Positions 20,421 to 55,778 of a DNA stretch of 64,000 nucleotides are shown here, in pieces. The stretch is from Pedobacter cryotolerans (lineage in GTDB: Bacteria > Bacteroidota > Bacteroidia > Sphingobacteriales > Sphingobacteriaceae). The position numbers were made by a program, and so were the translations under genes. Location: assembly GCF_005116475.1 (NCBI RefSeq), contig NZ_SWBO01000006.1, positions 124,307-188,306 on the forward strand, given 5' to 3'. The notes under the pieces are model-generated. The model did no database searches. It was not told where the DNA came from and saw only the letters and a program-made list of their open reading frames with translations. How positions within the stretch are numbered: position 1 is the first letter of the stretch; each line of letters opens with the position of its first letter.

Positions 20421-20575
20421 AAATAGAGGCGTATTGAACGTATAGTAGGAGAATGTTATTGAAAAAATATAATTGATGTTAAGATACAACTAAATTTCTT
20501 TTTAATTAACAAAACGGGCTACTGTTTGTTTTAAATAAATATTTGTTTAAAATTCATAAGCTAAAAAGTAAACAA

Positions 20576-20652: not shown

Positions 20653-21285
20653 GTGATTACAGAAAATGCTTCGTCAATTAAACTCTTTAACCTAAAAGAA
20701 ATTGGTAAAAAAAACATACCAGAAACTTACCTTACTTATCAAAAAGAATTGGAATTATTTTCTGATTGGGTAGCTAATTTTTTAGCAAAATCTAATGCAA
20801 ACTTAGGTCGTACTGGCGCTGTTTGCCCTTATGTACAATATGCAGAGGAAAAAGAATATTTTAAAGTTGGTGTTTTTGATGCACCAGATCCAAAACAAGA
20901 GCTAATTATTTCGCTTATTAGAGATTTGAAGGAACTTTTTATAACGATGAATCCTACCAATAAAAAAGATGAGAAATTTAAAGCAATTACCATATTATTT
21001 CCTACTTTAAATGAAAATCAGGTACTTGATATTATTGATGGTGTACAATTAAAACTAAAACCAGAATTTGTAAAACAAGGAATGATGATTGGACAATTTT
21101 ATGAAAATTGCCAACAAGGAGGATTAAGAAACTCTAGCTTTAGACCTTTACAATCGCCAGTACCTTTATTAGCCATTAGGTACATGGTAGAAACAGACTG
21201 GCCTTTTTTAGAAGGAGATAAAGTTTTAGAACAAGCTTACCAGAAAAATTTTGGCAAGATTAATTTTGGCACAAAAAAAGAATAA
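20653..21285 (+). CDS. Conserved protein resembling DUF6875, NRPS-linked
   Basis: A 210-aa soluble protein starting with GTG. I recall the family as DUF6875, found near natural-product genes, but could not check. Visible marks are GRTGAVCPYVQYA (residues 53-65, one conserved Cys), FPTLNENQVLDIIDGVQ (about 116-132), LKPEFVKQGMMIGQFYENCQQGG (about 135-157) and SFRPLQSPVPLLAIRYMVETDWPFL (about 161-185). No catalytic family is obvious to me. It is divergent from the A-PCP-TE NRPS and two bases upstream of the YbaK-type gene, so the two form a tight pair, probably tied to the NRPS locus. Confidence 0.75.
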   Translation: MITENASSIKLFNLKEIGKKNIPETYLTYQKELELFSDWVANFLAKSNANLGRTGAVCPYVQYAEEKEYFKVGVFDAPDPKQELIISLIRDLKELFITMNPTNKKDEKFKAITILFPTLNENQVLDIIDGVQLKLKPEFVKQGMMIGQFYENCQQGGLRNSSFRPLQSPVPLLAIRYMVETDWPFLEGDKVLEQAYQKNFGKINFGTKKE

Positions 21286-21287
21286 AA

Positions 21288-21764
21288 ATGCATCCAAAAA
21301 TTAAAGATAAATTAACTGAAGCGCAGCTTAATTATAAAGAAATTAAACACGCAACTTTTGACAAACCGATCCACTCGCCTTTGGATTTTGCGGAAGCATT
21401 AGGCTATGAAATAGGTCGTATCACGAAATCGGTTTTTTTGAGAGCAAAAACAAAGGATAAATACATTATGGCAGTTTGTTCTTGCCATAAAAAATTAGAC
21501 TTTGCAAAATTAGCCCAATTGGCAAAGGTGAATAAACTAGAAGTAGCAGATAAAAATGAGTTGGCAGAAATGATTGGTTATCCACCAACTGGAGTTTGCG
21601 CTATTGGTTTAACAGCTAACATTGCAATTTTTATGGATGCTGAACTGTTAAATTATCAAACTATAATGGTTGGATCAGGTGAAGTAGCCATTGAAATTGA
21701 GCTTAATCCAAAAGATTTACTTTTGATTACCAATGCTACTATTGACCAAATAAGTTTAGCTTAG
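21288..21764 (+). CDS. YbaK/EbsC-type aminoacyl-tRNA deacylase-like protein
   Basis: A 158-aa single-domain protein of the YbaK/ProX trans-editing family, whose known members hydrolyse mischarged tRNAs such as Cys-tRNA(Pro) or Ala-tRNA(Pro). Family marks: EIGRITKSVFLRAKTKDKYI (about residues 41-60, with the conserved Lys), the glycine loop YPPTGVCAIGL (about 98-108) and IFMDAELLNYQTIMVGSGE (about 114-132). It follows the DUF6875-like gene after two bases. In an NRPS setting it could hydrolyse a carrier-bound or tRNA-bound aminoacyl group, or protect the cell from a non-standard amino acid; this is speculation. Fold confident, substrate unknown. Confidence 0.85.
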   Translation: MHPKIKDKLTEAQLNYKEIKHATFDKPIHSPLDFAEALGYEIGRITKSVFLRAKTKDKYIMAVCSCHKKLDFAKLAQLAKVNKLEVADKNELAEMIGYPPTGVCAIGLTANIAIFMDAELLNYQTIMVGSGEVAIEIELNPKDLLLITNATIDQISLA

Positions 21765-25211: not shown

Positions 25212-28200
25212 ATGATAAGCGGTAAACCGTCTAATGAGCTCTCACCTCAAATAAGTGCTAAAACATGCTATGGCCCAAGTGTGCCATATCCAATTGGTCA
25301 AACATTAAATGATCTTCTGATAAACGGTGCCTTAAAAAATGATAATTCCATTGCGCTTGTGTACGGTGGTTTAGAGATGACATATGCAACATTGCACACC
25401 AAAAGCAATCAACTTGCACATCATTTACTTGAACTTGGGGCGTGTAATGATGCATTAGTAGGCGTTTTCTTAGCGCCTGGATTTAACATGGTAGTAGGCA
25501 TTTTGGGCATTTTAAAAGCTGGAGCTGCGTATGTTCCTATAGATCCAAATTTCCCAGCAGACCGTATCAATTATCTTTTGGAAGATACTGGTATGAAAAT
25601 TTGTTTAATCGATCATACGGCACTTCCGGCAATAAGCACCAATATTATACCTGTAAACCTCAACAAAGATTTAGCAGTAATCTCGGCTTATCCAACCTCA
25701 GTACCACATACAAATGTAAATGATTACAGCTTGGCTTATGTAATTTACACCTCAGGTTCTACAGGCTTACCAAAGGGGGTAATGATTGAGCATAGAAATA
25801 TTGTGAATTATTTACTTTTTAGTCAATCATTATTTACAGACCAATTAAAAAGTGGCACTTATTTTTATATGCCATTTACTTTCGATGCATCAATTACTGC
25901 ATTGTTCTTACCCTTAATCACAGGAAAAAAAATCGTAATTAGCACTAAAACAGGTGTAGATATTTTCGAAGACCCAAACTTAATAGCCCATGCGCCATAT
26001 GATTTTATTAAAATTACACCTGCTCATTTGGGTTTACTAAATTTAAAATATGGTGATAATTTATTTTTAACCAACAAATTAGTAGTTGGAGGAGAGGAAT
26101 TAAAACCAGAAAACATTGTTAACCTAAACGAAAACCAAAACCTTACCATTTACAACGAATATGGGCCAACAGAGTGCACAATTGGTTGTACTTTTTATGC
26201 TTTTTCTCCTTCAGGCAACTTAAAACAGAAAATAGCTATCGGAACGCCTTTTGCCAATACGACTGCTTTGGTATTAGGCGATGATGGACAACCAAAACCC
26301 ATTGGCGAAAGTGGCGAGTTGCATATTGGTGGTGCTCAAGTTGCACGTGGATACATCAATAAACCAGATTTAACAGGGTCAAGATTTATTGAAAGTAATT
26401 TACAGCAGGGTAGACTTTATAAAACTGGAGATATTTGTGCTTGGCAAGCCGACGGAAATTTAAGTTATTTGGGCAGAGCTGATGATCAGGTTAAAATTAG
26501 GGGATATCGGATAGAATTGGGAGAAGTTGAAATTTCGGTAGTAAATTCTGGTTTGGCCAAGGCTTGCACAGTTATCGCTACTGATGATGGAGATGGCGGC
26601 AAACGTTTGGTGGCTTTTTATGTACCGAACAACAAAGACTCTAATCAGCAAAAAATTAGAACTTACCTTCAGGAACATTTGCCTGATTACATGGTTCCGC
26701 AATTATTTGTAACATTAAGCGAATTACCCTTAACAAAAAATGGAAAGGTTGATAAAAAAGCTTTGCTCGTTCCTGATGCTTCCATGTTACTTTCCAATGC
26801 CTATGTACATCCAAAAACCGAAATTGAGAAAAATGTAGCTGCCGTTTGGAAAGCCGCACTCCATGTAAACAGAGTAGGCACTACCGATAACTTTTTTGAG
26901 TTAGGCGGCAATTCGCTGATGGCAAAAAAGGTGTTGATTGCTCTGCGTGAATTACATCAATATGCCATTCCTGTTACCAAATTATACCAAAGTCCAACTA
27001 TACAAGGCTTAACAAAGTTTTTAACCCCTCAAACTTCACAAAAACAAGTTCAAAACCAGCGAGAACTAGACAACAATGCCCCTATTGCGGTAATTGGGAT
27101 GGCAGGTAGATTTCCAGGCGCTAACAACATCAACGAGTTATGGGATGTATTAATTAATGGTAAAGAAACGACTACCTTTTTTAAACCAGAGGAGATTGCG
27201 AAAGAAATTCCTGATGAATTAAAAAACGATCCATTTTATGTAAATGCAAGGGGCATTATTGATCAAGCTGACCATTTCGACCCTGCTTTTTTTGGGATCA
27301 ATCCCAAGTTGGCCGCATTGATGGATCCTCAGCAACGCATATTTTTAGAAATTGCACATGAGGCACTAGAAAAAACTGGACACCTTCATCAAAACTATAC
27401 TGGCAAAATCGGCGTTTTTGCAGGAGCAGGAACCAATACCTATTATGAAAACAATGTATTGGCACATCCTGATTTAATTGAAAATCAGGGTAAGTTACAG
27501 GTACATTCGGTTAATGAAAAAGATTATATTGCCTCTAGAACAGCCTATCACTTAAACCTTCATGGCCCGGCAGTTAGTGTTAATTCGGCCTGTTCTACTT
27601 CATTGTTGGCTATAGCCGAAGCAGTTAATAGTTTACGTGCAGGGCAATGCGATGCAGCATTGGCGGGTGGAGCAAGCATTACATCTCCCATAAATAGTGG
27701 GCACCTATACCAAGAAGGGAGTATACTCAGTGCAGATGGCCATTGTGCGCCTTTTAACAATGAGGCTACTGGAACTGTTTTTAGCGATGGCGCTGGAGTT
27801 GTTCTTTTAAAAACATTATCGACTGCACAGCAAGATCGAGATCATATTTATGCCATTATTAAAGGTGTTGGCGTAAATAATGATGGTGCTGGCAAAGGTA
27901 GTTTTACTGCGCCAAGCTCTAGCGGACAAGCTCATGCTATTAGCGAAGCCATTGCAAATGCAGGTGTTGATCCTAGCGAAATTACCTATATTGAGGCCCA
28001 TGGCACCGGTACTCCAATTGGCGATCCGATAGAGTTTGAAGGTTTAACAACAGCGTTTGGAGAACAAAACAAAAACCAATATTGTGCCATTGGCGCTATC
28101 AAAAGTAATTTTGGGCATTTAACACAAGCTGCTGGTGTAGCTGGATTTATAAAAACTTGCCTTGCCTTAGCAAACAAAGTAATACCACCCACTTTAGGTT

Positions 28201-31200
28201 ACAAAATTCCTAATCAGCATATAGATTTTGTTAACAGTCCATTTTATGTAAACACCAAATTGGCCAATTGGAATGACGACAAAAGAATAGCAGGAGTAAG
28301 TTCATTTGGAGTTGGTGGCACCAATGTACATGTGGTTTTGGAAGCCTATGAAAATCCAGAAGCTACACCCCCTGTTTCTGATAAACCATTTCAATTGATC
28401 GCTTGGTCTGCAAATTCAGAAGATAGTTTAGATTCATATCGCAAGGCATTAGGAAATTATTTACAAGACGATCTAAATCCATCCTTAGCTGCTGTTGCAT
28501 ACACTTTATATCATAGCAAAGCTGATTATAAGCATCGGGCATTTACAGTAGCCGTAAGTTCTTCGCAACTGGGTGATAGCTTATTAACTAACTCTATCGG
28601 TTCATTTAATCCGAATTTATTAAGAGAAATCTCTGGCGAAATTGTCTTTACTTTTCCTGGTCAGGGAGCACAGTATTTAAACATGGGCTGGTCTCTTTAC
28701 GAAAATGAGCCTATTTACCGTGCAGCAGTTGATGAATGTGCATTAATTTTAACTCCCTACCTTAAACTCAACATCAAGGAGATTATTTTTGCCAAAGAAG
28801 AAAGTGACACCGCAGTTAACCTATTAAAAGAAACCAAATACACCCAACCCGCTTTATTTGTAACTGAATACGCATTGGCACAACTGTGGATTAGTTGGGG
28901 CATAAATCCTACCCTTTTATGCGGACACAGTGTTGGTGAGTATGTAGCAGCCCATTTAGCTGGTATATTTAGCTTAATTGATGCATTGAAACTTGTAGCC
29001 ACTAGAGGGGCATTAATCAGCGATTTACCAAAAGGTAGCATGCTTTCTGTAAGAGCTGAAGCTGCAGTAGTAAACAATTTACTTACTGGCGATTTAAGTA
29101 TTGCAGCCATCAATAGTCAAAAATTAGTAGTGGTTGCTGGGCCAACTGCTCAAATAGAACGATTGGCAAAACAACTATCTCAAAAGGAAATCATCAATAA
29201 GCCTTTGTTCACCAGTCATGCTTTCCATTCGGCAATGATGGATCCTGTTTTAGATGATTATCAAAAGATTGTAGCCGAGGTTAAATTAAACAAGCCAAAT
29301 ATTCCTGTTATTTCTACCGTTACTGGTAAGATTTTAAGTGATAGCGAAGCGATTAGCATAGCTTATTGGACTGCTCATTTACGCAAACCAGTATTGTTTT
29401 TAGCTGCCATATCAACCGCATTATCTTATCACCAACCCCTATTTTTAGAGGTTGGCCCTGGCTTAGTAACTTCAAGTTTGATTAAACAGATTGCTGCATT
29501 TAAAGGCCAAACATTGAAAGCTATTTCGAGCTTAGATCCGCAGAAGGACGCACTAGAATCTATCTTAAATACATTGGGTCATTTATGGGCCAATGGCATA
29601 AGTGTGGATTGGAAAGCTCTCTGTAAAGAACAGTCAATTATTGACCTACCTACCTATCAATTTGAGAGACAAAAATATTGGCTTGAGCCAAAACCAACTC
29701 AAGAAATATTAACTCAGGAAATTCCTTCTCCGATTATTCCTGTAGAAATTAATGCTCCAAAAAATTATACGCACATGAGAATAGACGCCCTTACTCAACA
29801 AGTTAAAAAAGTACTAGAAGATGCATCGGGTATTGACATGAATGATGTAGCATCAGAAAGTAATTTCCTAGAAATAGGGTTCGATTCGTTATTGCTAACT
29901 CAAGTAGCCACATCAATAAAGCGCCAGTTTAACTTACCGATAACTTTTAGGCAACTAAACGAAGAGTTTTCAAGCATTGCCAGTTTAGTTGCTTATCTAG
30001 ATAAAAATTTACCACAATCGCATTTTGCTACGTTAGCAGAGGTTAGTTCAACAATTGATCATTTGCCAAATCAGTCATTACCAGCTATAACTACCGACAA
30101 TAGTGCTTTGGGCTTAATTGCACAGCAGTTAAACATCTTAAGTAAACAAGTGATGCTCATGCAGGGCCAAAATCCTAACCATGCATCAGCCCAAATCAAT
30201 CCTACTGCTCATGTACCAATACCAGTTCTACAAACTGTTACTGATCGTTCTTCTATTAGCGAGCTTTCAGAAGAAGAAAAAGCAGAAATTAAAAAACCAT
30301 TTGGCGCTACACCAAAAATAGAGCGATTGGCATCAACCTTAAATGATAAACAAGTTTCTTTTTTAAAAGATCTTACTTTACGCTATAACAAAAAAACTTT
30401 TAAGAGTAAACAATATGCAGCTTCAAGTAGGTCATTTATGGCCGATCCTAGAGTAGTTTCGGGCTTTAAACCCGTTACAAAAGAATTGGTATACCCTATC
30501 GTGATTAACAAATCTAAAGGGAGCAAATTGTGGGATATAGATGGCAATCAATACTTAGATGCGCTTAATGGATTTGGATCTAATATGTTGGGCTATCAAC
30601 CTGATGTAATCAAAGAGGCTATGCATGAGCAAATAGAAAAAGGTTATGAAGTTGGGCCCCAACATGAACTGGCATCAGAAGTAAGTAAATTAATTTGTGA
30701 TTTTACTAGTTTTGAACGAGCAGCTTTATGCAGCACTGGCTCAGAAGCTGTTTTAGGTTGCATAAGAATTGCCCGAACAGTAACTAGCCGTTCGCTAATT
30801 GTTGCGTTTAGTGGCTCATATCATGGTATAATTGACGAGGTTTTAGTAAGAGGTACAAAAAAACTAAAATCATTTCCTGCTGCTGCTGGAATTATGCCAG
30901 AAGCGGTACAAAATATTTTAATACTAGACTACGGCACTCCCGAAACTCTTGCCATCATCAAAGAGCGTGGAGATGAAATTGCTGCTGTTTTAGTGGAGCC
31001 AATTCAGAGCAGGCGACCAGAATTTGTACCAATTGAATTTTTAAAAGAATTGAGAACAATTACAAAAGCAACTGGAGCGGTACTGATTTTTGATGAAGTG
31101 ATTACTGGTTTTAGATTTCACCCTGGTGGAGCGCAAGCAATATTTAATATCAAAGCAGATTTGGCAGCTTATGGAAAAGTTGTTGGCGGAGGTATTCCTA

Positions 31201-31853
31201 TTGGCGTTATTGCAGGCGATAGTTATTTGATGGACGCTCTTGACGGCGGCAATTGGAACTATGGTGATGAATCTATTCCAGAAATTGGGGTAACCTATTT
31301 TGCAGGTACATTTGTTCGGCACCCATTAGCTTTAGCTTCTGCTTACGCCTCTCTTAAATACATGAAAGAAAAGGGACCTGAGTTGCAAAAAAGTTTAAAT
31401 ACTAAGGGAGAATATCTGAGCAAAAAACTAAACGAAGCCATAGAAAAAAGGCAACTACCCATGTTTATTGCAAATTATGGATCGTTGTGGAAATTAAAAT
31501 ATCATCAAGAATTGCCTTACAGCGAATTGCTGTTTGTGCTTTTAAGAATAAAAGGAATTCACATTTTAGATGGTTTCCCGTGCTTTATTACAGAGGCTAC
31601 TTCGAATGATGATATCGAAATGATCATCAATGCTTTTGTACAAAGTTTAGACGAAATGATTGAAGCAGGATTTTTCCCATCACTTCATCAACCCAATCAA
31701 AATTATAATCCTTTAGCTGTAGTAATCGATTCGAGCAACCCTCCTTTTGCTGGCGCTAAACTAGGTAAAGATAAAGAAGGCAATCCGGCTTGGTTTATCA
31801 AAGATCCATCAAATGAACATCAATATTTACAATTAGGAGATAAAATTAATTGA
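25212..31853 (+). CDS. Hybrid NRPS-PKS: A-PCP-KS-AT-ACP-aminotransferase
   Basis: A 2213-aa megasynthase. Domains in order: adenylation (about 15-520), carrier (FFELGGNSL, Ser568), ketosynthase (about 623-1055; active Cys794, His930, His969), acyltransferase (about 1140-1450; GHSVG Ser1240, HAFH at 1336-1339, the malonyl-CoA type), carrier (IGFDSLL, Ser1559), then a class III PLP aminotransferase (about 1730-2190; FDEVITGFRF, Lys1989 in YGKVVGGG). No C, KR, DH or ER domain is present. The ACP-aminotransferase arrangement recalls the mycosubtilin/iturin synthetases. Inferred action: load an amino acid, extend by malonyl, aminate the beta-ketone. Pocket read by eye: D-A-T-K-V-G-E-I-G-K, close to Asn/Asp codes. 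The stop overlaps the next start by one base. Confidence 0.93.
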   Translation: MISGKPSNELSPQISAKTCYGPSVPYPIGQTLNDLLINGALKNDNSIALVYGGLEMTYATLHTKSNQLAHHLLELGACNDALVGVFLAPGFNMVVGILGILKAGAAYVPIDPNFPADRINYLLEDTGMKICLIDHTALPAISTNIIPVNLNKDLAVISAYPTSVPHTNVNDYSLAYVIYTSGSTGLPKGVMIEHRNIVNYLLFSQSLFTDQLKSGTYFYMPFTFDASITALFLPLITGKKIVISTKTGVDIFEDPNLIAHAPYDFIKITPAHLGLLNLKYGDNLFLTNKLVVGGEELKPENIVNLNENQNLTIYNEYGPTECTIGCTFYAFSPSGNLKQKIAIGTPFANTTALVLGDDGQPKPIGESGELHIGGAQVARGYINKPDLTGSRFIESNLQQGRLYKTGDICAWQADGNLSYLGRADDQVKIRGYRIELGEVEISVVNSGLAKACTVIATDDGDGGKRLVAFYVPNNKDSNQQKIRTYLQEHLPDYMVPQLFVTLSELPLTKNGKVDKKALLVPDASMLLSNAYVHPKTEIEKNVAAVWKAALHVNRVGTTDNFFELGGNSLMAKKVLIALRELHQYAIPVTKLYQSPTIQGLTKFLTPQTSQKQVQNQRELDNNAPIAVIGMAGRFPGANNINELWDVLINGKETTTFFKPEEIAKEIPDELKNDPFYVNARGIIDQADHFDPAFFGINPKLAALMDPQQRIFLEIAHEALEKTGHLHQNYTGKIGVFAGAGTNTYYENNVLAHPDLIENQGKLQVHSVNEKDYIASRTAYHLNLHGPAVSVNSACSTSLLAIAEAVNSLRAGQCDAALAGGASITSPINSGHLYQEGSILSADGHCAPFNNEATGTVFSDGAGVVLLKTLSTAQQDRDHIYAIIKGVGVNNDGAGKGSFTAPSSSGQAHAISEAIANAGVDPSEITYIEAHGTGTPIGDPIEFEGLTTAFGEQNKNQYCAIGAIKSNFGHLTQAAGVAGFIKTCLALANKVIPPTLGYKIPNQHIDFVNSPFYVNTKLANWNDDKRIAGVSSFGVGGTNVHVVLEAYENPEATPPVSDKPFQLIAWSANSEDSLDSYRKALGNYLQDDLNPSLAAVAYTLYHSKADYKHRAFTVAVSSSQLGDSLLTNSIGSFNPNLLREISGEIVFTFPGQGAQYLNMGWSLYENEPIYRAAVDECALILTPYLKLNIKEIIFAKEESDTAVNLLKETKYTQPALFVTEYALAQLWISWGINPTLLCGHSVGEYVAAHLAGIFSLIDALKLVATRGALISDLPKGSMLSVRAEAAVVNNLLTGDLSIAAINSQKLVVVAGPTAQIERLAKQLSQKEIINKPLFTSHAFHSAMMDPVLDDYQKIVAEVKLNKPNIPVISTVTGKILSDSEAISIAYWTAHLRKPVLFLAAISTALSYHQPLFLEVGPGLVTSSLIKQIAAFKGQTLKAISSLDPQKDALESILNTLGHLWANGISVDWKALCKEQSIIDLPTYQFERQKYWLEPKPTQEILTQEIPSPIIPVEINAPKNYTHMRIDALTQQVKKVLEDASGIDMNDVASESNFLEIGFDSLLLTQVATSIKRQFNLPITFRQLNEEFSSIASLVAYLDKNLPQSHFATLAEVSSTIDHLPNQSLPAITTDNSALGLIAQQLNILSKQVMLMQGQNPNHASAQINPTAHVPIPVLQTVTDRSSISELSEEEKAEIKKPFGATPKIERLASTLNDKQVSFLKDLTLRYNKKTFKSKQYAASSRSFMADPRVVSGFKPVTKELVYPIVINKSKGSKLWDIDGNQYLDALNGFGSNMLGYQPDVIKEAMHEQIEKGYEVGPQHELASEVSKLICDFTSFERAALCSTGSEAVLGCIRIARTVTSRSLIVAFSGSYHGIIDEVLVRGTKKLKSFPAAAGIMPEAVQNILILDYGTPETLAIIKERGDEIAAVLVEPIQSRRPEFVPIEFLKELRTITKATGAVLIFDEVITGFRFHPGGAQAIFNIKADLAAYGKVVGGGIPIGVIAGDSYLMDALDGGNWNYGDESIPEIGVTYFAGTFVRHPLALASAYASLKYMKEKGPELQKSLNTKGEYLSKKLNEAIEKRQLPMFIANYGSLWKLKYHQELPYSELLFVLLRIKGIHILDGFPCFITEATSNDDIEMIINAFVQSLDEMIEAGFFPSLHQPNQNYNPLAVVIDSSNPPFAGAKLGKDKEGNPAWFIKDPSNEHQYLQLGDKIN

Positions 31854-34800
31854 TGGAAACAGATCAAACGCTACCTCAAAACCTCATTGCAGTAGATTAT
31901 AACCCTTTTGAAATTGAAAGGGAAATTGATAAAATAATTGTAATCAATGAGTCTCAAAGAGAAATCTGGTTATCTTGCTTAATTGGCGGAGTGGAGGCTA
32001 ATTTGGCCTATAATGAATCTGTCACGTTAGCATTTAAAGGAGATTTTTCTCTCCCAAACTTTAAAAAAGCTTTATCAACCGTTGTTCATAGGCACGAAGC
32101 CCTAAGAAGTACTGTTAGTGCAAATGGGGCTCATTTTATCATTTATAAAGCTTTAGCTTTTGAGCTGGTTTATCACGATCTTAGCAATGAGACCGACGAA
32201 GAGCAGGAGCATACAATCAGTAATTTCTTAAAAAGTCAAATGTTACAACCATTTGATTTGGTAAATGAGCCATTATTTCGATTCTACCTTCATAAAAAAG
32301 ATGAACATGAGTATTTTTTCACGCTAGTTATTCATCATATTATTGGCGATGGCTGGTCTATTGGCATCATTTTAGAAAACCTAAGTAAAGCTTATAATGC
32401 TTACCAAAATAATGAAGAACCAACACTACCTCCCGTAAATCAAATCAGTAGTTATGCCAAAGAACAATTTAACTATTTACAAGGTGAGCAATTTAAAGCA
32501 ACAGAACAATTTTGGTTAAAAAAATTCGCTGGCCCTATTCCATCCTTAAATTTACCTACAGATTTTGAGCGAGGTAAAAGTAGAACTTATCAAGCAAACC
32601 GAATAGACCATAAATTAGATTCAGCATTAGTTAAACAAATAAAATTAGCTGGAGCTAAAGCAGGCTGTAGTTTGGTAAATACCATGCTTGGCCTTTTTGA
32701 AGTTTTTTTGTCACAAATAACACATCAAAGTGATATTGTGGTTGGTTTACCCGCAGCCGGACAACTCGCAACCGCAAATTATGAATTGGTTGGACATTGC
32801 GTAAATATCATCCCCATACGTAGTAAAATAGATGGCTCGCATACATTATTATCGTACCTAAAAGAAAGCAAAACTAGTTTTTTAGATGCTTATGAGCATC
32901 AGCAACTCAGTTTTGGGCAACTGTTAAAGAAACTCAATTTTAAGAGAGATCCTGCTCGAATACCTTTAGTACCTGTTGTTTTTAATATAGACATGGGAAT
33001 GGATCAAGCCGTAGAATTTAATGGATTAGCATTAGAGTTGGGCTCGGCCCATAGAGCCTATGAAACATTTGAACTTTTTTTAAACGCCACAGGCAGCCAA
33101 GAAACTTTAATTTTAGAATGGAATTACAATACTCAATTATTTAAGGAAAGTACCATTAAACATTGGGTTACTGATTTTGAAAAATTATTGCAAGATTTTG
33201 TTAAAAACCCCGAAAGTGCTGTTGAGTTTGCAGCAACTAATTCGGAACTAAAACTACCAATACAGCAGCAAGTAACGCGTAATTATACAGGCGGGGATAT
33301 TGTTGCTATCATTAATGAATCTTGTGTAGCAAATAAAAGTAAAACTGCTGTTAAGTTTAAAAATGAAACGCTTACCTATCAGCAACTGCTGGAAAAATCA
33401 AATCAGCTAGCTCAAATTTTAGTTAAAAATGGGGTTGGTAGCGGAGATATCGTTGCTTTATCTACTGATAGGTCTATACACATGGTGGTAATGCTTTTAG
33501 GCATTTTAAAAGCTGGAGCTGCTTATTTGCCTTTAGATCCATCTTACCCAAAAGATAGAATTGAATTTATGCTAGCCGATGCTGGCGCAAAATTATTGCT
33601 ATTAAATAAAAAATATGCCCATCAATTTAATGCAAGCCAAAATGAACTTTACATTGAAAACATTTGGCAAGAATTAGCGCAAGAAGCGCTTCATTTTACC
33701 ATTAATATCAATCTAAAACAGATTTCTAACATCATTTACACATCTGGCACTACCGGAAAACCAAAGGGTACCAAAACCACTCATAAAAATCTTGCTAATT
33801 TAATCACAAGTATAAAAAATCAACCTGGTGTAAAAACAGCAGATAAATTTCTAGCCTTAACCACCATTTCGTTTGATATTGCCGCGGTAGAAATCTTTTT
33901 GCCTTTATTAGCAGGGGCTACTGTAGTTATTGCCACAGCAGAAGATGGAAAAGATGGACGATTACTGCTAGAATTGATAGAAAAAGAAAACATTACCATT
34001 CTTCAAGCCACACCATCAAGGTGGAAAATGTTATTGAGCGCTGGTTGGGAAAAACAATATCCAATTACTGCATTTACAGCTGGCGAGGCTTTAACAAAAC
34101 AATTGGCGCATCAAATACTGCAAAAAACAAAAGCACTGTGGAATTTATATGGACCTACAGAAACAACCATTTATTCTACCATTAAGCAAGTAAGTATTAC
34201 TGATGAATTGATCACCATTGGTAAACCTGTAAATAATACCGCCATCTATATTCTTGACGAACATCAAAAGCAGCTTCCCGTAAATACTATTGGCGAAATA
34301 TTTATTGCTGGCGAAGGGGTTGCTGATGGTTATTTGAACAGACCTGAACTAACTGCTGAAAAATTTATTTTTGATCCTTTTAGTGATGTTGAAGGGCAAA
34401 AAATGTATGGAACTGGCGATTTAGGAAAATATCTACCCAATGGTGAAATTCAGTGTTTAGGCAGAATTGACCATCAGGTAAAAATTCGTGGTTACAGAAT
34501 AGAATTGGAAGAAATTGAAGCTGCACTTGCCAAACAACCTGATGTGAAACAAGTTGTGGTAACCGCAAAAACAGATTTAAACGAACAGCAAAGGCTAGTG
34601 GCTTACCTAATTTTAAATCACAACAAGAAAATAAATGATAATGAGCCATCTATTATTGATAAAAAAATAACAAATCATTGGAAAACAGCACTCAATGAGT
34701 TATTGCCAAGTTTTATGATCCCCGATCAATACATTGCTTTGACTGAATTTCCGCTAACACCAAATGGTAAAATTGATAGAAATAAACTGCCCTATCCAAC

Positions 34801-35875
34801 TATAAAAACTGAAAATGACGATGACCATCAACCTACTTTAAGTAAAAATGAATTATTGGTAGCAAATATTTGGTCTAAAGTTTTAAAGCTCGAAAATTTA
34901 AAGCCAGATGATGACTTCTTTGAAATTGGTGGGCATTCTTTATTAGCCGTTAGTGTAATGATGGAGATTGAGCAGCAAACCAAACGCAAATTACCTTTGG
35001 CTACACTTTTCGAAAATTCTACTATTAGAAGTTTGGCTAAAATGCTAATTGTTGATGAAAAAGAAATTAAATGGAATTCGCTAGTGCCCATTAAAAAAAC
35101 TGGCAATAAAATCCCCATCTATCTCATTCATGGAGCAGGCTTAAATGTGCTCATATTTAATCTGCTTAGTAAATATGTAGATAAAGAACAGCCAGTTTAT
35201 GGCATGCAAGCTATTGGTTTAGATGAAGATAGAGAATTTGGCTACACCATGGAAGAATTGGCAGACATTTATCTTGCTGAAATTTTAGCGCATAACCCAA
35301 CTGGCCCGTATGCCTTAGCAGGATACTCTTTTGGTGGATTACTTGCTTACGAAATGGCTGGTAAATTAATGCAAATGGGTAAAGAAATTAAAATGTTAGG
35401 GCTTTTAGACACCAATGCTACGGGTAAAGAACTTTATAAGAGCAAGGCTGATGAATTGATGAAAAAATTTACCAGACAAATTCATAAACCACTCTTTTTT
35501 TCGAAATCTTTTATAGAATATCCTTTAGAAACCATTAGCTATCAGTTCAATGGCATTTCAACTAGATTTAATAAATTTTTCAATATTAATAACAAAACGC
35601 CTGATGATGTGTTATCAAATAAAGAAAAACTTTCTAAAAGTTACGACATCGCTTACAATAACTACAAGTTGAAACCCCTACCCATACACGTAGATTTGTT
35701 TAGAGTAAAAAAACGTTTATATTTTTTAGATGATTTAAAATACTTAGGTTGGAATTCTTATGCTAAAAAGGGCGTATCAGTTCACGAAGTACCTGGAGAT
35801 CACAAAACTTTTCTTTTTGAGCCCAATGTTAAAATGTTTGCAGAAATTTTGCAACGCACTTTAAATCAAAAATAA
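31853..35875 (+). CDS. NRPS, C-A-PCP-TE terminal module
   Basis: A 1340-aa termination module. I use the ATG at 31853, which shares a base with the upstream stop (TGATG); the preceding TTG is less likely. Domains: condensation (about 25-450; HHIIGDG at 161-167, the intact HHxxxDG motif), adenylation (about 480-970; IIYTSGTTGKPKG, YGPTETTIY, LTPNGKIDRNKL), carrier (FFEIGGHSLL, Ser1029), thioesterase (IYLIHGAGL, AGYSFGG with Ser1159). It should accept the beta-amino chain from the preceding protein, join it to an amino acid and release the product by hydrolysis or cyclisation. The pocket reads D-I-V-Q-F-A-L-I-Y-K, nearest to glycine codes (inference). Its A-PCP-TE part is a close paralogue of the leftward NRPS at 17847-20420. 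Confidence 0.93.
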   Translation: METDQTLPQNLIAVDYNPFEIEREIDKIIVINESQREIWLSCLIGGVEANLAYNESVTLAFKGDFSLPNFKKALSTVVHRHEALRSTVSANGAHFIIYKALAFELVYHDLSNETDEEQEHTISNFLKSQMLQPFDLVNEPLFRFYLHKKDEHEYFFTLVIHHIIGDGWSIGIILENLSKAYNAYQNNEEPTLPPVNQISSYAKEQFNYLQGEQFKATEQFWLKKFAGPIPSLNLPTDFERGKSRTYQANRIDHKLDSALVKQIKLAGAKAGCSLVNTMLGLFEVFLSQITHQSDIVVGLPAAGQLATANYELVGHCVNIIPIRSKIDGSHTLLSYLKESKTSFLDAYEHQQLSFGQLLKKLNFKRDPARIPLVPVVFNIDMGMDQAVEFNGLALELGSAHRAYETFELFLNATGSQETLILEWNYNTQLFKESTIKHWVTDFEKLLQDFVKNPESAVEFAATNSELKLPIQQQVTRNYTGGDIVAIINESCVANKSKTAVKFKNETLTYQQLLEKSNQLAQILVKNGVGSGDIVALSTDRSIHMVVMLLGILKAGAAYLPLDPSYPKDRIEFMLADAGAKLLLLNKKYAHQFNASQNELYIENIWQELAQEALHFTININLKQISNIIYTSGTTGKPKGTKTTHKNLANLITSIKNQPGVKTADKFLALTTISFDIAAVEIFLPLLAGATVVIATAEDGKDGRLLLELIEKENITILQATPSRWKMLLSAGWEKQYPITAFTAGEALTKQLAHQILQKTKALWNLYGPTETTIYSTIKQVSITDELITIGKPVNNTAIYILDEHQKQLPVNTIGEIFIAGEGVADGYLNRPELTAEKFIFDPFSDVEGQKMYGTGDLGKYLPNGEIQCLGRIDHQVKIRGYRIELEEIEAALAKQPDVKQVVVTAKTDLNEQQRLVAYLILNHNKKINDNEPSIIDKKITNHWKTALNELLPSFMIPDQYIALTEFPLTPNGKIDRNKLPYPTIKTENDDDHQPTLSKNELLVANIWSKVLKLENLKPDDDFFEIGGHSLLAVSVMMEIEQQTKRKLPLATLFENSTIRSLAKMLIVDEKEIKWNSLVPIKKTGNKIPIYLIHGAGLNVLIFNLLSKYVDKEQPVYGMQAIGLDEDREFGYTMEELADIYLAEILAHNPTGPYALAGYSFGGLLAYEMAGKLMQMGKEIKMLGLLDTNATGKELYKSKADELMKKFTRQIHKPLFFSKSFIEYPLETISYQFNGISTRFNKFFNINNKTPDDVLSNKEKLSKSYDIAYNNYKLKPLPIHVDLFRVKKRLYFLDDLKYLGWNSYAKKGVSVHEVPGDHKTFLFEPNVKMFAEILQRTLNQK

Positions 35876-35887
35876 CAAGTATTGTAT

Positions 35888-36589
35888 ATGGAGTGTTTAC
35901 CATTAAAAGAAAATATCGTTTGGAAAACAGCGTATCAGCTACTGGCTGAAAAATTAAATGGGGGTTTGCACATTTTTAAAATTGCTGTTGATGAGCATTT
36001 TCAAAAAATAGAAGCGATTTACAAAGATTTTTTAACAGAACGTGAAATTTTAAAAAGCAACAGGTTTAGGCATAAAAAAGACCGCGATAGCTATATCGTT
36101 CGCAAATATATCACTCAGAAAATTTTGTCAAGCTTTTTAAATGTGCCGCAAAATGAAATTCAATATGATAAAGCGGCAAATCAAAAACCGATTGTGCAAG
36201 GCTTAGAGTTTAATGTGAGCCATAGCAATAACTTGATACTAATTGCAGTAGGTTCCTTACCAGTAGGTGTTGATGTGGAGTTGATGAAACAAGATTTTAG
36301 TTTTACTTCGCTTTTGGCAGACTGCTTTCATCCAAATGAGACTGTTTTAATAAAAAACTCTCAAGATCAGCTTACTTGCTTTTATGGCTTATGGACTAGA
36401 AAAGAAGCGATACTAAAAGCTACAGGCGAAGGTTTGATTGAGGAATTACCAGAAATAAATTGCTTACCAAATCAAATCACTAGAAAAAACGAAACTTTTA
36501 ACTTGCTTAGTTTTTTAGTAGAAAAACATTATGTTGCAAGTATAGCAGTAAGTAGTTTAGTGCAAGAAATTAATTTTTGGACGTATTAG
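35888..36589 (+). CDS. 4'-phosphopantetheinyl transferase, Sfp type
   Basis: A 233-aa enzyme that transfers phosphopantetheine from coenzyme A to carrier-domain serines. I use the ATG at 35888, 12 bases after the NRPS stop; a TTG two codons earlier is in frame. The Sfp signature is present: VGVDVELMKQDF (about residues 119-130, Mg-binding acidic residues) and FYGLWTRKEAILKATGEGL (about 160-178). The N-terminal RHKKDRDSYIVRKYI matches the usual FxxxxDRxxxxxxR region. It closes the operon and probably activates the three NRPS/PKS proteins of this locus and perhaps the free ACP at 52952. Confidence 0.92.
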   Translation: MECLPLKENIVWKTAYQLLAEKLNGGLHIFKIAVDEHFQKIEAIYKDFLTEREILKSNRFRHKKDRDSYIVRKYITQKILSSFLNVPQNEIQYDKAANQKPIVQGLEFNVSHSNNLILIAVGSLPVGVDVELMKQDFSFTSLLADCFHPNETVLIKNSQDQLTCFYGLWTRKEAILKATGEGLIEELPEINCLPNQITRKNETFNLLSFLVEKHYVASIAVSSLVQEINFWTY

Positions 36590-36606
36590 AATATTATGAT
36601 GACCTT

Positions 36607-36620
36607 CCGATAGCTATCGG
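36607..36620. repeat. CCGATAGCTATCGG palindrome
   Basis: A perfect 14-bp palindrome 18 bases after the phosphopantetheinyl transferase stop. A near copy (CCGATAGCTATCG) lies near 17684-17696. It has no T-run, so it is listed as a dispersed palindrome. Confidence 0.6.
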
Positions 36621-36838
36621 AACGAGCTGAACATGACGGACTCTCTTCTTCGCGTCACCCCCACGCAGGTGGGGATCCTAATGCGGTAGCTATTCTTTAT
36701 TTTTCATATCCTACTTAAGCATTACGATGCCCAGAAAGCTTGTCCCGAATTTACTTCGGGAAGCTACCATTGACATTATTTGTTAAGTATCTATAAATCA
36801 AATTTTTTAAAAATTCTAAACTCCTAGTTTTGTCATTC

Positions 36839-36858
36839 CCTGCCTGCCGGCAGGCAGG
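36839..36858. repeat. 20-bp perfect palindrome, array unit 1
   Basis: CCTGCCTGCCGGCAGGCAGG is perfectly self-complementary. It sits in the extra block of the first long unit and recurs at 38195-38214; the middle long unit carries a copy split by the inserted element. Confidence 0.8.
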
Positions 36859-37478
36859 CGACTTCGGAGGAATCTAATAGTTTGAATTTATTTAAGAGAT
36901 CCTTCGCTGCACTCTGGATGACAAAACGAGCTAAATTAACGTCACTCATATTGATTTTTATGAAATAAATTACCCCTGTGCATGACAAAATTCTCTTCTT
37001 ACACTTCATCCCCACGCAGGTGGCGATACTAATGCGTTAGCTATTCTTGTTTTTCATATCCTACTTAAGCATTACGATGCCCAGTCGAACTGAGCATGAC
37101 GGAGTTTATTTATTAATTGAGCATGACGAACTCCTCTTTTTCGCGTCATCCCCACGCAGGTGGGGATCCTAATGCGGTAGCTATTCTTTATTTTTCATAT
37201 CCTACTTAAGCATTACGATGCCCAGTCGAACTGAGCATGACGGAGTTTATTTATTAATTGAGCATGACCAACTCCTCTTTTTCCCGTCATCCCCACGCAG
37301 GTGGGGATCCTAATGCGGTAGCTATTCTTTGTTTTTCATATCCTACTTACGCATTACGCTGCCCATAAAATTTGTCCCGAATTTAATTCGGTAAGCCACC
37401 ATTGACATTATTTGTTAAGGTTTATAAATCAAATTTTTTTAAAATTCTAAACTCCTAGTTTTGTCATTCCCTGCCGTC

Positions 37479-37852
37479 AGCTACTATTAGGACACATTTT
37501 TGTGCGCTGGAATATTGAACTATACAAGGCTACATTGATAAAAGTAGAAGCTAGAGCCAAGGACGACCGTCAATCCTCAGTGCCAGCCAAATCAAAAAAA
37601 CAGTAGCACAACAGAAAAAAATGCACTAGCAAACCTAAAACGCAGTGGTTTTGTGTTCAATTTGGCAGATACTTTAATTTTTCACTACCGAACAAAACAA
37701 AGTGCCGCTGTTTTTTTGATGAGCGGAGGCTTGTGAAAAGGCACATTGATGGATTGATAAGCATTTTTGCATACTTTTGATGCTTCAAAAGTTTGATGCC
37801 CGCCGGCAAAGAGGCTGAGTGAAAATTGAATACTTGTGCCCTAATAGTAGCT
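37479..37852. mobile_element. MITE-like element with 18-bp terminal inverted repeats
   Basis: AGCTACTATTAGGACACA (37479-37496) matches the reverse complement of 37835-37852 at 17 of 18 positions. Inside is a second inverted pair, 37591-37609 with 37702-37720 (17 of 19), and a stem-loop at 37773-37792. There is no transposase ORF in its 374 bases. It interrupts the CCTGCC/TGCCGGCAGG palindrome of the middle long repeat; joining the flanks restores the palindrome with one mismatch. Unit spacing (725 against 350-351) agrees with the size. A TGCC flank on both sides could be a 4-bp target duplication, but the palindrome itself repeats TGCC, so this is ambiguous. Confidence 0.75.
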
Positions 37853-38194
37853 TGCCGGCAGGCAAGCGAATTCGGAGGAATCTCATAGTTTGAATTTATT
37901 TAAGAGATCCTTCGCTGCACTCTGGATGACATAACGAGCTAAATTAACTTCATTGATATTGATTTTTATGAAATAAATTACCCCTGAGCATGACGAATCC
38001 TAACTTCTGCGTCATCCCCACGCAGGTGGGGATCCTAATGCGGTAGCTATTCTTTGTTTTTCATATCTTACTCAAGAATTACGATGCCCAGAAAGCTTGT
38101 CCCGAATTTACTTCGGGAAGCTACCATTGACATTATTTGTTAAGGTTTATAAATCAAATTTTTTTAAAATTCTAAACTCCTAGTTTTGTCATTC

Positions 38195-38214
38195 CCTGCC
38201 TGCCGGCAGGCAGG
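38195..38214. repeat. 20-bp perfect palindrome, last long unit
   Basis: Second intact copy of the self-complementary CCTGCCTGCCGGCAGGCAGG, in the last 350-bp unit of the array. Confidence 0.8.
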
Positions 38215-38489
38215 CGACTTCGGAGGAATCTCATAGTTTGAATTTATTTATGAGATCCTTCGCTGCACTCAGAATGACAAATCGCTTTAAATTTAGCGTC
38301 ATTTATAATGATTTTTATGAAATAAATTACCCCTGAGCATGACGAATCCCTAACTTCTGCGTCATCCCCACGCAGGTGGGGATCCTAATGCAGTAGCTAT
38401 TCTTTGTTTTTCATATCCTACTTATGCATTACGATGCCCAGTCGAGCTGAGCATGACGGACTCTCAAGCATATCGAATTTTATTTAGCT

Positions 38490-39206
38490 TTATTCTTTTT
38501 TAAAATAAGCATGATGTAGTTGATTGCCATAAAGCGCAACCATTTTTTCTGGTTTATCTTTTAAAAACGAGCTAGCTCCCAAATAAACCCCAGGATTACA
38601 ATCAAAGCCGTTAGGAAATTGATTTCTATCAATGTAATCGGTTAGCAAACAAATTGCACCCTTTGTCATTTTAGGATAAACTTCTGTCAAGCAGTAAATC
38701 ATGATATCTCTATGTTCAAATTTATCTCCACCATGCCCACAATCTATGTGCACAAACGCAATCTCCTCTGGCAATTGTGTAGGCAGAGTATCTTGAAAAT
38801 AACCTTTATGTAGCGTAGGTAAATTAAGGCCAGCCTTTAGAAAATTGGCTTTTAAGATCTCCTGAATATCTCCATGTTCAGAAAATTGAATTTCAAAGGA
38901 ATCATACAGGTGTAATTTTTTATCAGATTGATTTTGCTGCAATACATTTTGGAACAACATGGCAGAAAAACCAGTAAATGCACCCAGTTCTACTAAATCG
39001 CCTTTTACATTGGCAGCTATAATTTGGTTAACTAAATGATAATAGTTCATTCTTTGCTCCACATTATTCATGTCTCTAAAAGGATCTATCAAAGGTGTTA
39101 AATCACCTAATTTTAAATATCTTAGACCTTTACCAACCCATTTTTTAATAAATGACGGTTTAATTGCTCTAGTGTATGGGGGTTGGGTGATGAAGTAATT
39201 ATCCAT
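38490..39206 (-). CDS. TylF/MycF-like SAM-dependent O-methyltransferase
   Basis: A 238-aa enzyme of the macrocin-O-methyltransferase-like family. The SAM-binding motif is GDLVELGAFTGFSA (about residues 70-83); metal- and substrate-side residues appear in HLYDSFE (about 99-105) and AFVHIDCGHGGDKFEHRD (about 151-168). TylF/MycF enzymes methylate sugar hydroxyls on antibiotics, and relatives in polysaccharide loci are thought to methylate glycan sugars. Here it ends a leftward operon behind two glycosyltransferases (15-base gap), which favours a glycan substrate, although the NRPS product next door is an alternative. Acceptor unknown. Confidence 0.82.
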   Translation of the reverse strand: MDNYFITQPPYTRAIKPSFIKKWVGKGLRYLKLGDLTPLIDPFRDMNNVEQRMNYYHLVNQIIAANVKGDLVELGAFTGFSAMLFQNVLQQNQSDKKLHLYDSFEIQFSEHGDIQEILKANFLKAGLNLPTLHKGYFQDTLPTQLPEEIAFVHIDCGHGGDKFEHRDIMIYCLTEVYPKMTKGAICLLTDYIDRNQFPNGFDCNPGVYLGASSFLKDKPEKMVALYGNQLHHAYFKKE

Positions 39207-39221
39207 AATTATATCATGTAG

Positions 39222-40391
39222 TTAAACTTTTCTCTTAGATCTTTCCCAGGCTGCACTTTGGCTTTTACTGATGTATCTACCAATGCCTGCAATTACTGCA
39301 TAATTCATTAAACAGAAATAATAGGGAATAAAAAATGCTTTTATTTTCAGGTTTCTGCTTTCAAAAAACCATCCTATTAAACTTAAAATATAAAATAACA
39401 CTTGCGCAACAAGTAGCAATTGATAGCCTAATAAATCCGTATTTAAAACGATTAAAAGATTCAATATCAACACCAACATTAGTAAAAAGGGAACAATAGT
39501 CCACCTTAAAACCCGATGCGAAATATATTGAAAAGTTAAAACGGGATAATTGAAAGGGTTAGCAGCCTTACCCAATCTAAAGATCGACTGCATACCACCT
39601 GCAGCAATTCTAATTTTTCTCTTCAGTTCTTCTTTGGTATTTGCCGATGCTGTTTCCATGGCATAAGCTTCAGGTTCATAAGCAATTAAATAACCATTTT
39701 CGGCAATTCGCATCGCAATCATGTGATCATCAATAATGGTATCACTTTCTACTGGTTGGTAAAGTGCTTTTCTAATACTAAATAATTCGCCTGCGGCACC
39801 CACATTAGAATATAATTCATAATCCCACTTTTTAAGTAAAGATTCATACTTCCAATAAAATCCTTCGCCAGCCGAACTTGCATCTGCAACCGTTGGGATA
39901 AATACTTTTTTCTCTCCAGCTACTGCGCCAACTTTTTCATTTTGATAATGTTTAACCAAATTTTTAATTGCCTGATCATTTAAAAATGTATTGGCATCGG
40001 TAAACACCATAATTTCCCCATCAACAAATGGTATTGCTCTTTTAATTGCTGCCATTTTACCGTCTCTGGCATTGTTATGAAGTAATACAACTTCCTGATA
40101 AGGCTTAATGAGTTCTGGCGTACGGTCTGTAGATCCATCCGTTACAAAAATAATTTGAAGCTTTTCTTTCGGATAATCAATTGCTAGTGTATTTTCAATC
40201 TTTTTTACGATCATGTCTTCTTCATTCCATGCCGCAATAAGAATAGTAACAGAAGGCAATAATTGATCGGTTTTAAATACAAACGGTTTTTTAAACATTC
40301 GTTTGATTTTGATCAAAATATAGAGTAAAAATCCATACCCAACAAAAGTATAAACGATTAAAAATAAGGCAATCCAGAATATGATGATCAT
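39222..40391 (-). CDS. Membrane glycosyltransferase, family 2
   Basis: A 389-aa processive-type GT2 enzyme. One N-terminal membrane helix (about 1-25) precedes the GT-A domain: VTILIAAWNEEDMI (49-62), FVTDGSTDRT (about 83-92), then FTDANTF (the DXD-like site, about 129-135) and IDDHMIAMRIAENG with the GT2 ED-type acidic pair, followed by a KRRIRI-like KRKIRIAAGG. Three or four C-terminal membrane helices follow (about 285-375). The architecture fits hyaluronan/cellulose-synthase-like or N-glycosyltransferase enzymes. It starts six bases after the stop of the preceding GT2 gene in the same leftward operon. Confidence 0.9.
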   Translation of the reverse strand: MIIIFWIALFLIVYTFVGYGFLLYILIKIKRMFKKPFVFKTDQLLPSVTILIAAWNEEDMIVKKIENTLAIDYPKEKLQIIFVTDGSTDRTPELIKPYQEVVLLHNNARDGKMAAIKRAIPFVDGEIMVFTDANTFLNDQAIKNLVKHYQNEKVGAVAGEKKVFIPTVADASSAGEGFYWKYESLLKKWDYELYSNVGAAGELFSIRKALYQPVESDTIIDDHMIAMRIAENGYLIAYEPEAYAMETASANTKEELKRKIRIAAGGMQSIFRLGKAANPFNYPVLTFQYISHRVLRWTIVPFLLMLVLILNLLIVLNTDLLGYQLLLVAQVLFYILSLIGWFFESRNLKIKAFFIPYYFCLMNYAVIAGIGRYISKSQSAAWERSKRKV

Positions 40392-40396
40392 TAATT

Positions 40397-41308
40397 TTAA
40401 ATTTTAAAACCTAAGTTTTTGCTGTTTTTGTGGTGGGTAAAATTCCAGATTAAACCTTTGAATACATATTTAATTAAATCTGTACGACCTTTGACCAAAT
40501 AAACCAATATTTGTTTGGGAGAAGCAATGAAGGTATAATAAATGGTGAAAAGTATGGTATTAAAAAAAGAGGTATTTCTTCTAATGAACAATAAGCGATT
40601 TCGCGTCATAAAGTAGGTTTTAATTTTACTCTCTTTACCTACACTCATCGATTCTTTATGGTAAATTTTTGTTTTCCCGGTAAACCAGATTTTTTTTCCT
40701 GCTTTTTTAAACCTTTCGCACCAATCAATTTCCTCATAATATAAAAAAAACTGATCAGGCATTAAGCCAACAATAGCTAAATCAGCCCTTTTGCACATCA
40801 TTGCTGCACCATGGCAATAACCTGTTTCTCGGCTATCTTTTAAATATTGATTTTGATTTACTTCTTTATGTCCAATTTCATTATTTCTGCAGGTTAAATA
40901 ATTCATGGGTGTAAAACCTGCGTATTGAATTATTGTCGGCTCATCATAATACAAAATCAAGGGAGAAATCAATCCTATTGTTGGGTTTTTTACCATTTCT
41001 GCAACAAGTACTTCAATTAATCCAGGGGTAATTTCAGTATCATTATTTAAAAAGAGTAAATATTCTCCTTTGGCTTTGGCAACGCCTAAATTATTACCTC
41101 CAGCAAAACCTAAATTTTTTGTCGAACGTATATAAATTACATTTGGATAAACTGCTTTAAATTGTGCTTCGCAGTCTTCATTGCTACCATTGTCAACTAA
41201 AATTACTTCTACTTCATTTTCTTGCGTATGCGTTTTAACCGACTTTAAAAAATCTATTGTTACGTTTGGTTGATTAAAATTTACAGTGATTATTGAAGTC
41301 AAACTCAT
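40397..41308 (-). CDS. Glycosyltransferase family 2, rhamnosyltransferase-like
   Basis: A 303-aa cytosolic/peripheral GT2 enzyme. Marks: TSIITVNFNQPNVTIDFL (4-21), VILVDNGSNEDCE (about 34-46), NLGFAGGNNLGVAKAKGEYLLFLNNDTE (about 64-91, DXD-like NNDTE) and FFLYYEEIDWCERFKKAGKKIWF (about 188-210). This layout is typical of WcaA/RfbF-like rhamnosyltransferases of exopolysaccharide and O-antigen loci. The C-terminal part has a hydrophobic segment near 255-275 that may dock it to the membrane. Middle gene of the leftward operon 42926-38490. Donor and acceptor unknown. Confidence 0.88.
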   Translation of the reverse strand: MSLTSIITVNFNQPNVTIDFLKSVKTHTQENEVEVILVDNGSNEDCEAQFKAVYPNVIYIRSTKNLGFAGGNNLGVAKAKGEYLLFLNNDTEITPGLIEVLVAEMVKNPTIGLISPLILYYDEPTIIQYAGFTPMNYLTCRNNEIGHKEVNQNQYLKDSRETGYCHGAAMMCKRADLAIVGLMPDQFFLYYEEIDWCERFKKAGKKIWFTGKTKIYHKESMSVGKESKIKTYFMTRNRLLFIRRNTSFFNTILFTIYYTFIASPKQILVYLVKGRTDLIKYVFKGLIWNFTHHKNSKNLGFKI

Positions 41309-50760: not shown

Positions 50761-51219
50761 TAAAATATATCTAACAATCATCCTACTTATATTTCTTTCT
50801 CGAAAATCTTTATTTCCAGCAAGTATGTTGATTAATGTAAAAGGATAAATGATTTTTCTGGTTTATGATTAATATTTAGCATTTATTATTTCTCTTTTTT
50901 TAGAAAACCTCTTATTAATTTAAAGCAATCCATTTATATTTCATCTAGTATTTAATATTAACGATGCTTTTATAGTTTATTACAAATACAATTTTGCTAT
51001 TTATCCACTTTTAAGTAAAGCTCAAGACTAAGTAAATTTTTGCTTTATAGTTAAATATAAATTACATTTGCATTTGGAAATTAATGATAAGTAAATATTT
51101 AACTTATCATTAATTATTTTCATTGTATTACGCACCAAATTAAACTTTATACGGTTATAAACTTGTAATAACTTGTTTGCAGGAATACTACAAAATGTGA
51201 ATGCTTCATATTGAACATA
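50761..51219. other. Long AT-rich leader region of the acyl-decoration operon
   Basis: About 460 bases without a gene between the flippase and the FkbH-like gene. It contains a full Bacteroidota promoter (51039-51070) and about 140 bases of predicted leader. No strong hairpin or riboswitch-like structure was noticed. Confidence 0.6.
51039..51070 (+). promoter_or_regulatory. Bacteroidota-type promoter of the FkbH operon
   Basis: TTTG at 51039-51042 and TACATTTG at 51063-51070, 20 bases apart, match both elements of the established Bacteroidota housekeeping promoter (TTTG, 19-21 bp, TAnnTTTG). The predicted start point lies near 51077, leaving a leader of about 140 bases before the ATG at 51220. 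Confidence 0.75.
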
Positions 51220-52941: not shown

Positions 52942-52951
52942 GAAAATATTT

Positions 52952-54304: not shown

Positions 54305-54331
54305 GCATTTATTCAATCATATCAACCTAAA

Positions 54332-55774: not shown

Positions 55775-55778
55775 AATA

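Follow-up and report, generated by a model that had tools for sequence, protein, structure and literature searches.

A hybrid NRPS-PKS operon of Pedobacter and related bacteria with a conserved KS-AT-ACP-aminotransferase core, apparently exchanged loading domains and a predicted vicinal-diamino product

What is made by an assembly line that loads an amino acid, hands it to a ketosynthase (KS) with no condensation (C) domain in between, and carries an aminotransferase (AMT) and no ketoreductase (KR)? In statine-type modules (A-PCP-KS-AT-KR-ACP), an amino acid is homologated by two carbons through direct PCP-to-KS transfer and the KR gives a 3-hydroxy group. In MycA of the mycosubtilin synthetase, the order is KS-AT-ACP-AMT and the chain starts from a fatty acyl group. 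The question is raised by a window of 64,000 nucleotides from Pedobacter cryotolerans, in which two proteins, here called ORF1 and ORF2, and a phosphopantetheinyl transferase (PPTase) are encoded in a row. Hybrid clusters account for 12-17% of the Pedobacter clusters (PMC10609062, PMC12181424), and the portions consulted of these two papers hold no discussion of a cluster of the ORF1 type; the vast majority of NRPS, PKS, and hybrid clusters in Bacteroidetes are unique in comparison with other phyla (PMC9248904).

A sequence-only reading of this DNA had described an A-PCP-KS-AT-ACP-aminotransferase protein, a C-A-PCP-TE protein overlapping it by one base, and an Sfp-type PPTase, in that order. 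The reading frames have the coordinates and lengths that it gave, Pfam agrees on the domains and the PPTase (Table 1), and the overlap is seen as TGATG, in which the ORF1 stop and the ORF2 start have one base in common. The active residues it named in ORF1 (S568, C794, H930, H969, S1240, S1559, and K1989) stand where it placed them, as do HHxxxDG at 161-167, S1029, and S1159 of ORF2 when numbered from the ATG at 31853. It was also right in seeing no C domain before the KS and no ketoreductase: the Pfam scan of ORF1 found no C domain between PCP and KS and no match to a KR family. The same scan gave two carrier stretches (best 1529-1596), and the loading domain consists of an A domain of the amino-acid type (TIGR01733 above cut-off) and a PCP.

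Table 1. Features of the synthase operon and of the genes downstream of it, in window positions
Feature	Position	Strand	Residues or basis
ORF1, A-PCP-KS-AT-ACP-aminotransferase, 2213 aa	25212-31853		Pfam
ORF1 adenylation domain, code DATKVGEIGK, Asn-like	25335..26747	+	residues 42-512, Pfam and code positions
ORF1 PCP, S568, approximate boundaries	26784..27041	+	
ORF1 KS, C794/H930/H969, no C domain ahead, approximate end	27078..28376	+	residues 623-1113 (Pfam)
ORF1 AT, S1240, HAFH at 1336	28644..29567	+	residues 1145-1452, Pfam
ORF1 ACP, S1559	29796..29999	+	Pfam
ORF1 class-III PLP aminotransferase, D1961/K1989, approximate boundaries	30399..31601	+	Pfam match 1761-2118
ORF1 C-terminal tail, conserved, pattern GxDxxGNPAWF	31749..31850	+	
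ORF2, C-A-PCP-TE, ATG start, A code DIVQFALIYK	31853..35875	+	Pfam
Sfp/HetI-type phosphopantetheinyl transferase, TTG 35882 or ATG 35888	35882..36589	+	Pfam: ACPS/Sfp-type
TylF-like methyltransferase	38490..39206	-	
GT2 glycosyltransferase c2, strongly associated with the synthase within the genus	39222..40391	-	
GT2 glycosyltransferase c3	40397..41308	-	

In the gene-order table, in which 59 of the 62 carriers of the genus were entered, a PPTase homologue lies at most three genes from ORF1 in 52 of the 59 loci. The TylF-like methyltransferase gene follows the PPTase gene directly and co-directionally in two genomes (G014, G047) and lies on the opposite strand in the window. Between the two genes the window has a 1.9-kb gap (36590-38489) made up largely of interspersed repeats (six copies of 127 nt and three of 191 nt, at least 60% identity), and one 94-nt repeat unit from it has 46 full or partial matches genome-wide. 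Promoter and terminator scans gave sites no more numerous than in shuffled sequence. Upstream of the operon, on the minus strand, the window also encodes a free-standing A-PCP-TE protein of 880 aa (17847-20489) whose code, DIEQFGMIC (part of it read by eye), is Gly-like; the protein is 42% identical to ORF2 over the aligned part, and a relative of it adjoins c3 in another genome (G140, L043). Near this gene, at 20653-21764 on the plus strand, is a gene for a DUF6875 protein, followed by one for a YbaK-like aminoacyl-tRNA editing protein.

The sequence-only reading suggested that the domain order of ORF1 was unrecorded, and this does not stand. In their 2013 survey, Milano et al. list C6XWU5 of Pedobacter heparinus as A-CP-KS-AT-CP-PLP1 with the prediction Nrp-Mal-Gly-Pk (PMC3870968, Table 2), where, in the parts consulted, it is catalogued without a product structure. 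ORF1 of the window shares this order in one protein. A Gly-type NRPS would be expected next in a C6XWU5-like family, and the ORF2 code of the window is only Gly-like; P. heparinus differs from the window in its starter code and in having the longer form of ORF2. The same order lies within longer proteins of Thiorhodococcus drewsii (G2E5C9) and Salinisphaera shabanensis (F7QBN5), which, in contrast to ORF1, have more domains behind it, F7QBN5 also having a C domain first, and for which predicted monomers only are listed (PMC3870968). Searches of papers, mostly through the openings of abstracts, turned up no characterised cluster that matches it in both order and product. What is supported of the earlier interpretation is the direct PCP-to-KS transfer, the embedded aminotransferase of the MycA type, and the predicted vicinal 3,4-diamino acyl product.

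The AMT domain of ORF1 is homologous to that of MycA. Among solved structures its best matches are the MycA entries 6kfm and 6kfu (354 bits), 6kfm being the closest relative, and the best match outside MycA is glutamate-1-semialdehyde (GSA) aminomutase with 178 bits. ORF1 shares with the MycA-type beta-aminotransferase module a KS-AT-ACP unit with a GSA-like class-III aminotransferase in cis, and the PLP-binding Lys and the Asp are present throughout the ORF1 family (81/81). The acyl-ligase/ACP module by which the iturin and mycosubtilin synthetases load a fatty acid is absent from ORF1, which rules out an iturin-like lipopeptide synthetase. As in hybrid NRPS-PKSs with direct PCP-to-KS transfer, the A-PCP stands directly before an intact KS. 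A statine-type module is ruled out by the lack of a KR between AT and ACP, and a 3-amino group is predicted instead of the 3-hydroxy group. Unlike MycA with its fatty acyl chain, ORF1 would start from an amino acid through A-PCP, and the new amine would therefore land beside an existing one, giving a vicinal diamine.

The cluster is not unique. With the AMT domain as query, 62 of the 145 genomes of the genus match at E<=1e-90 (the source genome included), and at E<=1e-60 matches were found in 112 of 399 genomes of the family (7 of 25 genera) and in 18 of 395 genomes of the phylum (11 of 170 genera). Two named carriers are Aquiflexum lacus (Cyclobacteriaceae) and Cognataquiflexum nitidum. Within the genus, the reading frames that hold the matches are nearly all about 2166-2248 aa long. 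Matches of 40-47% identity, in proteins of other length that are probably other aminotransferase PKSs, are the sole basis for counting one of the 112 family genomes (G818) and four of the 18 phylum genomes (G211, G294, G415, G424). The whole of ORF1 as query against the genome contigs gave two loci only. The cluster is real, intact, and widespread, and amounts to a form of the MycA-type module that starts from an amino acid.

From the fetched loci, 83 aminotransferase-bearing proteins were collected, of which the 81 longer than 2000 aa were kept (the shorter ones of G172 and G424 were dropped). The seven active residues of ORF1 listed above are unchanged in all 81, and so is D1961 of the AMT domain; since the seven are invariant, a chance or broken gene is ruled out. 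In the AT domain, 80 proteins have the motif HAFH and one has HAYH; we take HAFH to mark the malonyl type. Over the first 60 proteins of the set of 81, the mean pairwise identity is 44% for A, 48% for PCP, 68% for KS, 54% for AT, 60% for ACP, and 75.5% for AMT, which is the most conserved domain. Each fixed position of the C-terminal tail is kept in 76-81 of the 81 homologues, and the tail is perhaps a docking element to ORF2 or a linker.

The A domain at the front behaves differently. Ten-position codes read off the alignment of the 81 proteins gave 29 starter codes, several of which are one residue apart or contain an alignment gap and may not mean different amino acids. The commonest, DVQFMAQV, has one position gapped in the alignment. 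The starter code of the window is one conservative change from DATKVGEVGK, predicted for Asn in zeamine Zmn16 (PMC3547906), so that this A domain appears to be specific for Asn or a near relative. Other starter codes include DFWNIGMVHK, tabulated as Thr (PMC3547906; PMC2533009), DVWHLSLIDK, close to the Ser code DVWHLSLVDK (PMC12283262), and DLTKIGHIGK, which looks Asp/Asn-like; G104, of the same genus, combines the starter code DAEHVGKITK with a 1740-aa ORF2 of code DILQLGMIWK. Searches of the PDB with A domains returned other A domains alone, and no specificity.

Identities of KS and AMT rise and fall together (correlation 0.87 over 3240 pairs), and those of A with KS (0.58) and of A with AMT (0.50) do so less. 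When pairs were matched at 80-85% AMT identity, A domains that share a code (no more than one difference) were 62% identical (56-77, n=54), while those with codes at least four positions apart were 40% identical (30-53, n=186), and the KS identities were 75% and 72%; the pairs are non-independent and the code positions sit within the most divergent A stretch. At AMT identities of 90% and above the gap is smaller (79 versus 63% for same and different codes, n=91 and 18). Most of the code falls within residues 181-330, and it is there that the difference is greatest; some difference is still present at 391-510, and towards the KS it dwindles. Because A identity splits by code while KS identity hardly changes, faster drift of the A domain is ruled out as the sole cause, and the simplest reading of the alignments is replacement of the A core ahead of a conserved homologation-transamination core, KS-AT-ACP-AMT. 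Such an arrangement, in which the core appears to have been kept and the loading A domain exchanged, is new, and like the exopolysaccharide setting described below it goes beyond the sequence-only reading, both being visible only across other genomes.

A co-directional protein of at least 500 aa is encoded close behind ORF1 in 78 of the 81 cases and is lacking in three; it has 1300-1500 aa in 50, 1700-1800 aa in 21, more than 2500 aa in four, and other sizes in three. An NRPS of the ORF2 type is absent from this position in G069 and G541. In G320 (L102/L103; 3437 aa) and G097 (3392 aa), ORF1 and ORF2 are apparently fused, with two A codes each, in G567 (L089/L088) two ORF1 paralogues stand in tandem with a 3028-aa ORF2, and in G646 (L096/L097) two ORF2s follow in succession. 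All 21 longer ORF2s (1700-1800 aa) have the code DILQLG[ML][IV]WK, and that of L025 has a methyltransferase inside its A domain. DILQLGMIWK, a frequent ORF2 code in the family, has been reported from domains that activate Gly (PMC12283262); taken with the methyltransferase of L025, this makes N-methylglycine the likely substrate of the longer form. ORF2s of 1300-1500 aa show, among other codes, DLTKMGHIGK (12 proteins, Asp/Asn-like) and DVQYMAQV types (11). For the ORF2 code of the window, no matching assigned code was found, and judged by eye it comes closest to the Gly-like codes. In some members of the genus (L024 16369-17202, 17275-18060, and relatives) the operon is flanked by genes for a Cupin_8/JmjC hydroxylase-like protein and an FkbM methyltransferase, which are possible tailoring enzymes.

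We infer the substrates, reactions, and mode of release from domain order, catalytic residues, gene order, and conservation. The PPTase would arm the carriers, and the ORF1 A domain would load Asn or a near relative on the PCP. Since no C domain separates it from the PCP, the KS would take the aminoacyl group directly and condense it with malonyl-ACP to a 4-amino-3-oxoacyl chain, whose 3-oxo group would be converted in cis to an amine by the MycA-type aminotransferase. Direct PCP-to-KS transfer, the embedded aminotransferase, and the lack of a ketoreductase therefore together predict a 3,4-diamino acyl-ACP. ORF2 would join this chain to one small residue (its code is Gly/Ala-like) and the TE would release a small, very polar dipeptide, linear or cyclised, whose first residue would be two-carbon-homologated Asn, i.e., the monoamide of 3,4-diaminoadipic acid. 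We consider it probable that the two-protein line makes a beta,gamma-diamino acyl chain joined to a small residue and released by the TE, and that the family makes a set of vicinal-diamino peptides. No vicinal-diamine, diamino-acid, or amino-statine NRPS-PKS product is described in the literature searched, mostly the openings of abstracts.

Gamma-amino acyl thioesters are prone to gamma-lactam formation, and the 4-amino group may cyclise before ORF2 acts. The starter amine is un-acylated, as no C domain precedes the A domain, and its attack on the thioester would give a 4-aminopyrrolidin-2-one, or a tetramic acid if transamination did not take place, with ORF2 taking part of the flux. The two genomes in which ORF1 has no adjacent ORF2 would suit such an outcome; mostly, however, ORF1 is followed closely by a large NRPS in the set of 81, and together with the apparent fusions in G320 and G097 this suggests that channelling to a second residue is selected. 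We regard such a lactam or tetramic acid as unlikely to be the real product. If instead the aminotransferase were inactive or acted elsewhere, the line would make a simple beta-keto or tetramic dipeptide, which is very improbable for a domain that is the most conserved of ORF1 and has K1989 and D1961 invariant in 81/81. The diamino acyl dipeptide is the reading we retain.

Within the genus, an exopolysaccharide locus adjoins or surrounds the operon, a setting that is new; in the literature searched, mostly the openings of abstracts, no NRPS is described in a Pedobacter polysaccharide locus. A close form of the glycosyltransferase c2 (at least 67% identity) is present in 58 of the 62 carriers, missing in four, and present in 9 of the 83 non-carriers (Fisher p about 1e-25, kinship ignored). 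Among the 58, c2 is convergent downstream in 49, upstream and co-directional in seven, and on another contig in two, and in all 56 same-contig carriers it lies at most 10.4 kb from the AMT domain. Seven genomes have the synthase embedded in a co-directional array that also encodes Ugd and glycosyltransferases, and in five of these Wzx is present too within the stretch fetched. Outside the genus, C. nitidum has Poly_export and Wzc-like genes directly downstream, and in A. lacus members of the same gene clusters are near the synthase. The window itself has, at 51211-56687 on the plus strand, genes for an FkbH_N protein, a MaoC dehydratase, an SDR, an MBOAT, and a small partner with no Pfam match, a cassette that looks like one for acyl decoration of a polysaccharide. 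Upstream of the synthase in several genomes is a PycTM-domain protein (Pycsar effector family; L029 16792-18105) beside a TetR regulator and a polyphosphate kinase.

The polysaccharide associations would suit a product that is used in the exopolysaccharide of the locus, whether as building block or as substituent, and is not a diffusible metabolite. Against this, at least three of the nine non-carriers with the close form of c2 (G026, G140, G147) also have c3 and the PPTase, which looks like synthase loss, the c2 association was computed with kinship ignored, and no attaching enzyme was identified. A further 21 loci (G172 and G122 from this genus, 19 from other genera) comprise seven with clear polysaccharide neighbours (G567, G580, G596, G646, G541, G419a, G172), four with weak ones only (G122, G424, G406, G431), and a remainder in which none were seen. 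When five loci of genus g34 were compared by BLAST with a polysaccharide set made up of proteins from the window and proteins related to them, four gave no match and G431 gave one glycosyltransferase match of 23%, with most genes in the g34 loci left unannotated. Polysaccharide linkage as a requirement was therefore dropped. We think it quite improbable that the product belongs to the polymer, and the fuller proposal, in which the vicinal-diamino dipeptide decorates or builds a secreted polysaccharide and starter exchange between strains varies the surface polymer, is more doubtful still. The polysaccharide setting is a lead, not a function.

With the core kept and the loading A domain apparently exchanged, the family would make vicinal-diamino ("amino-statine") peptides. 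If this is true, these bacteria have a common and chemically unexplored natural-product family, in which a fixed homologation-transamination engine, fed by exchangeable starter domains, makes 3,4-diamino acids. The natural series of A-domain exchanges before one KS would be a test bed for the tolerance of the KS and aminotransferase gates, a practical matter in assembly-line engineering, and the polysaccharide setting opens a testable question on the purpose of the product.
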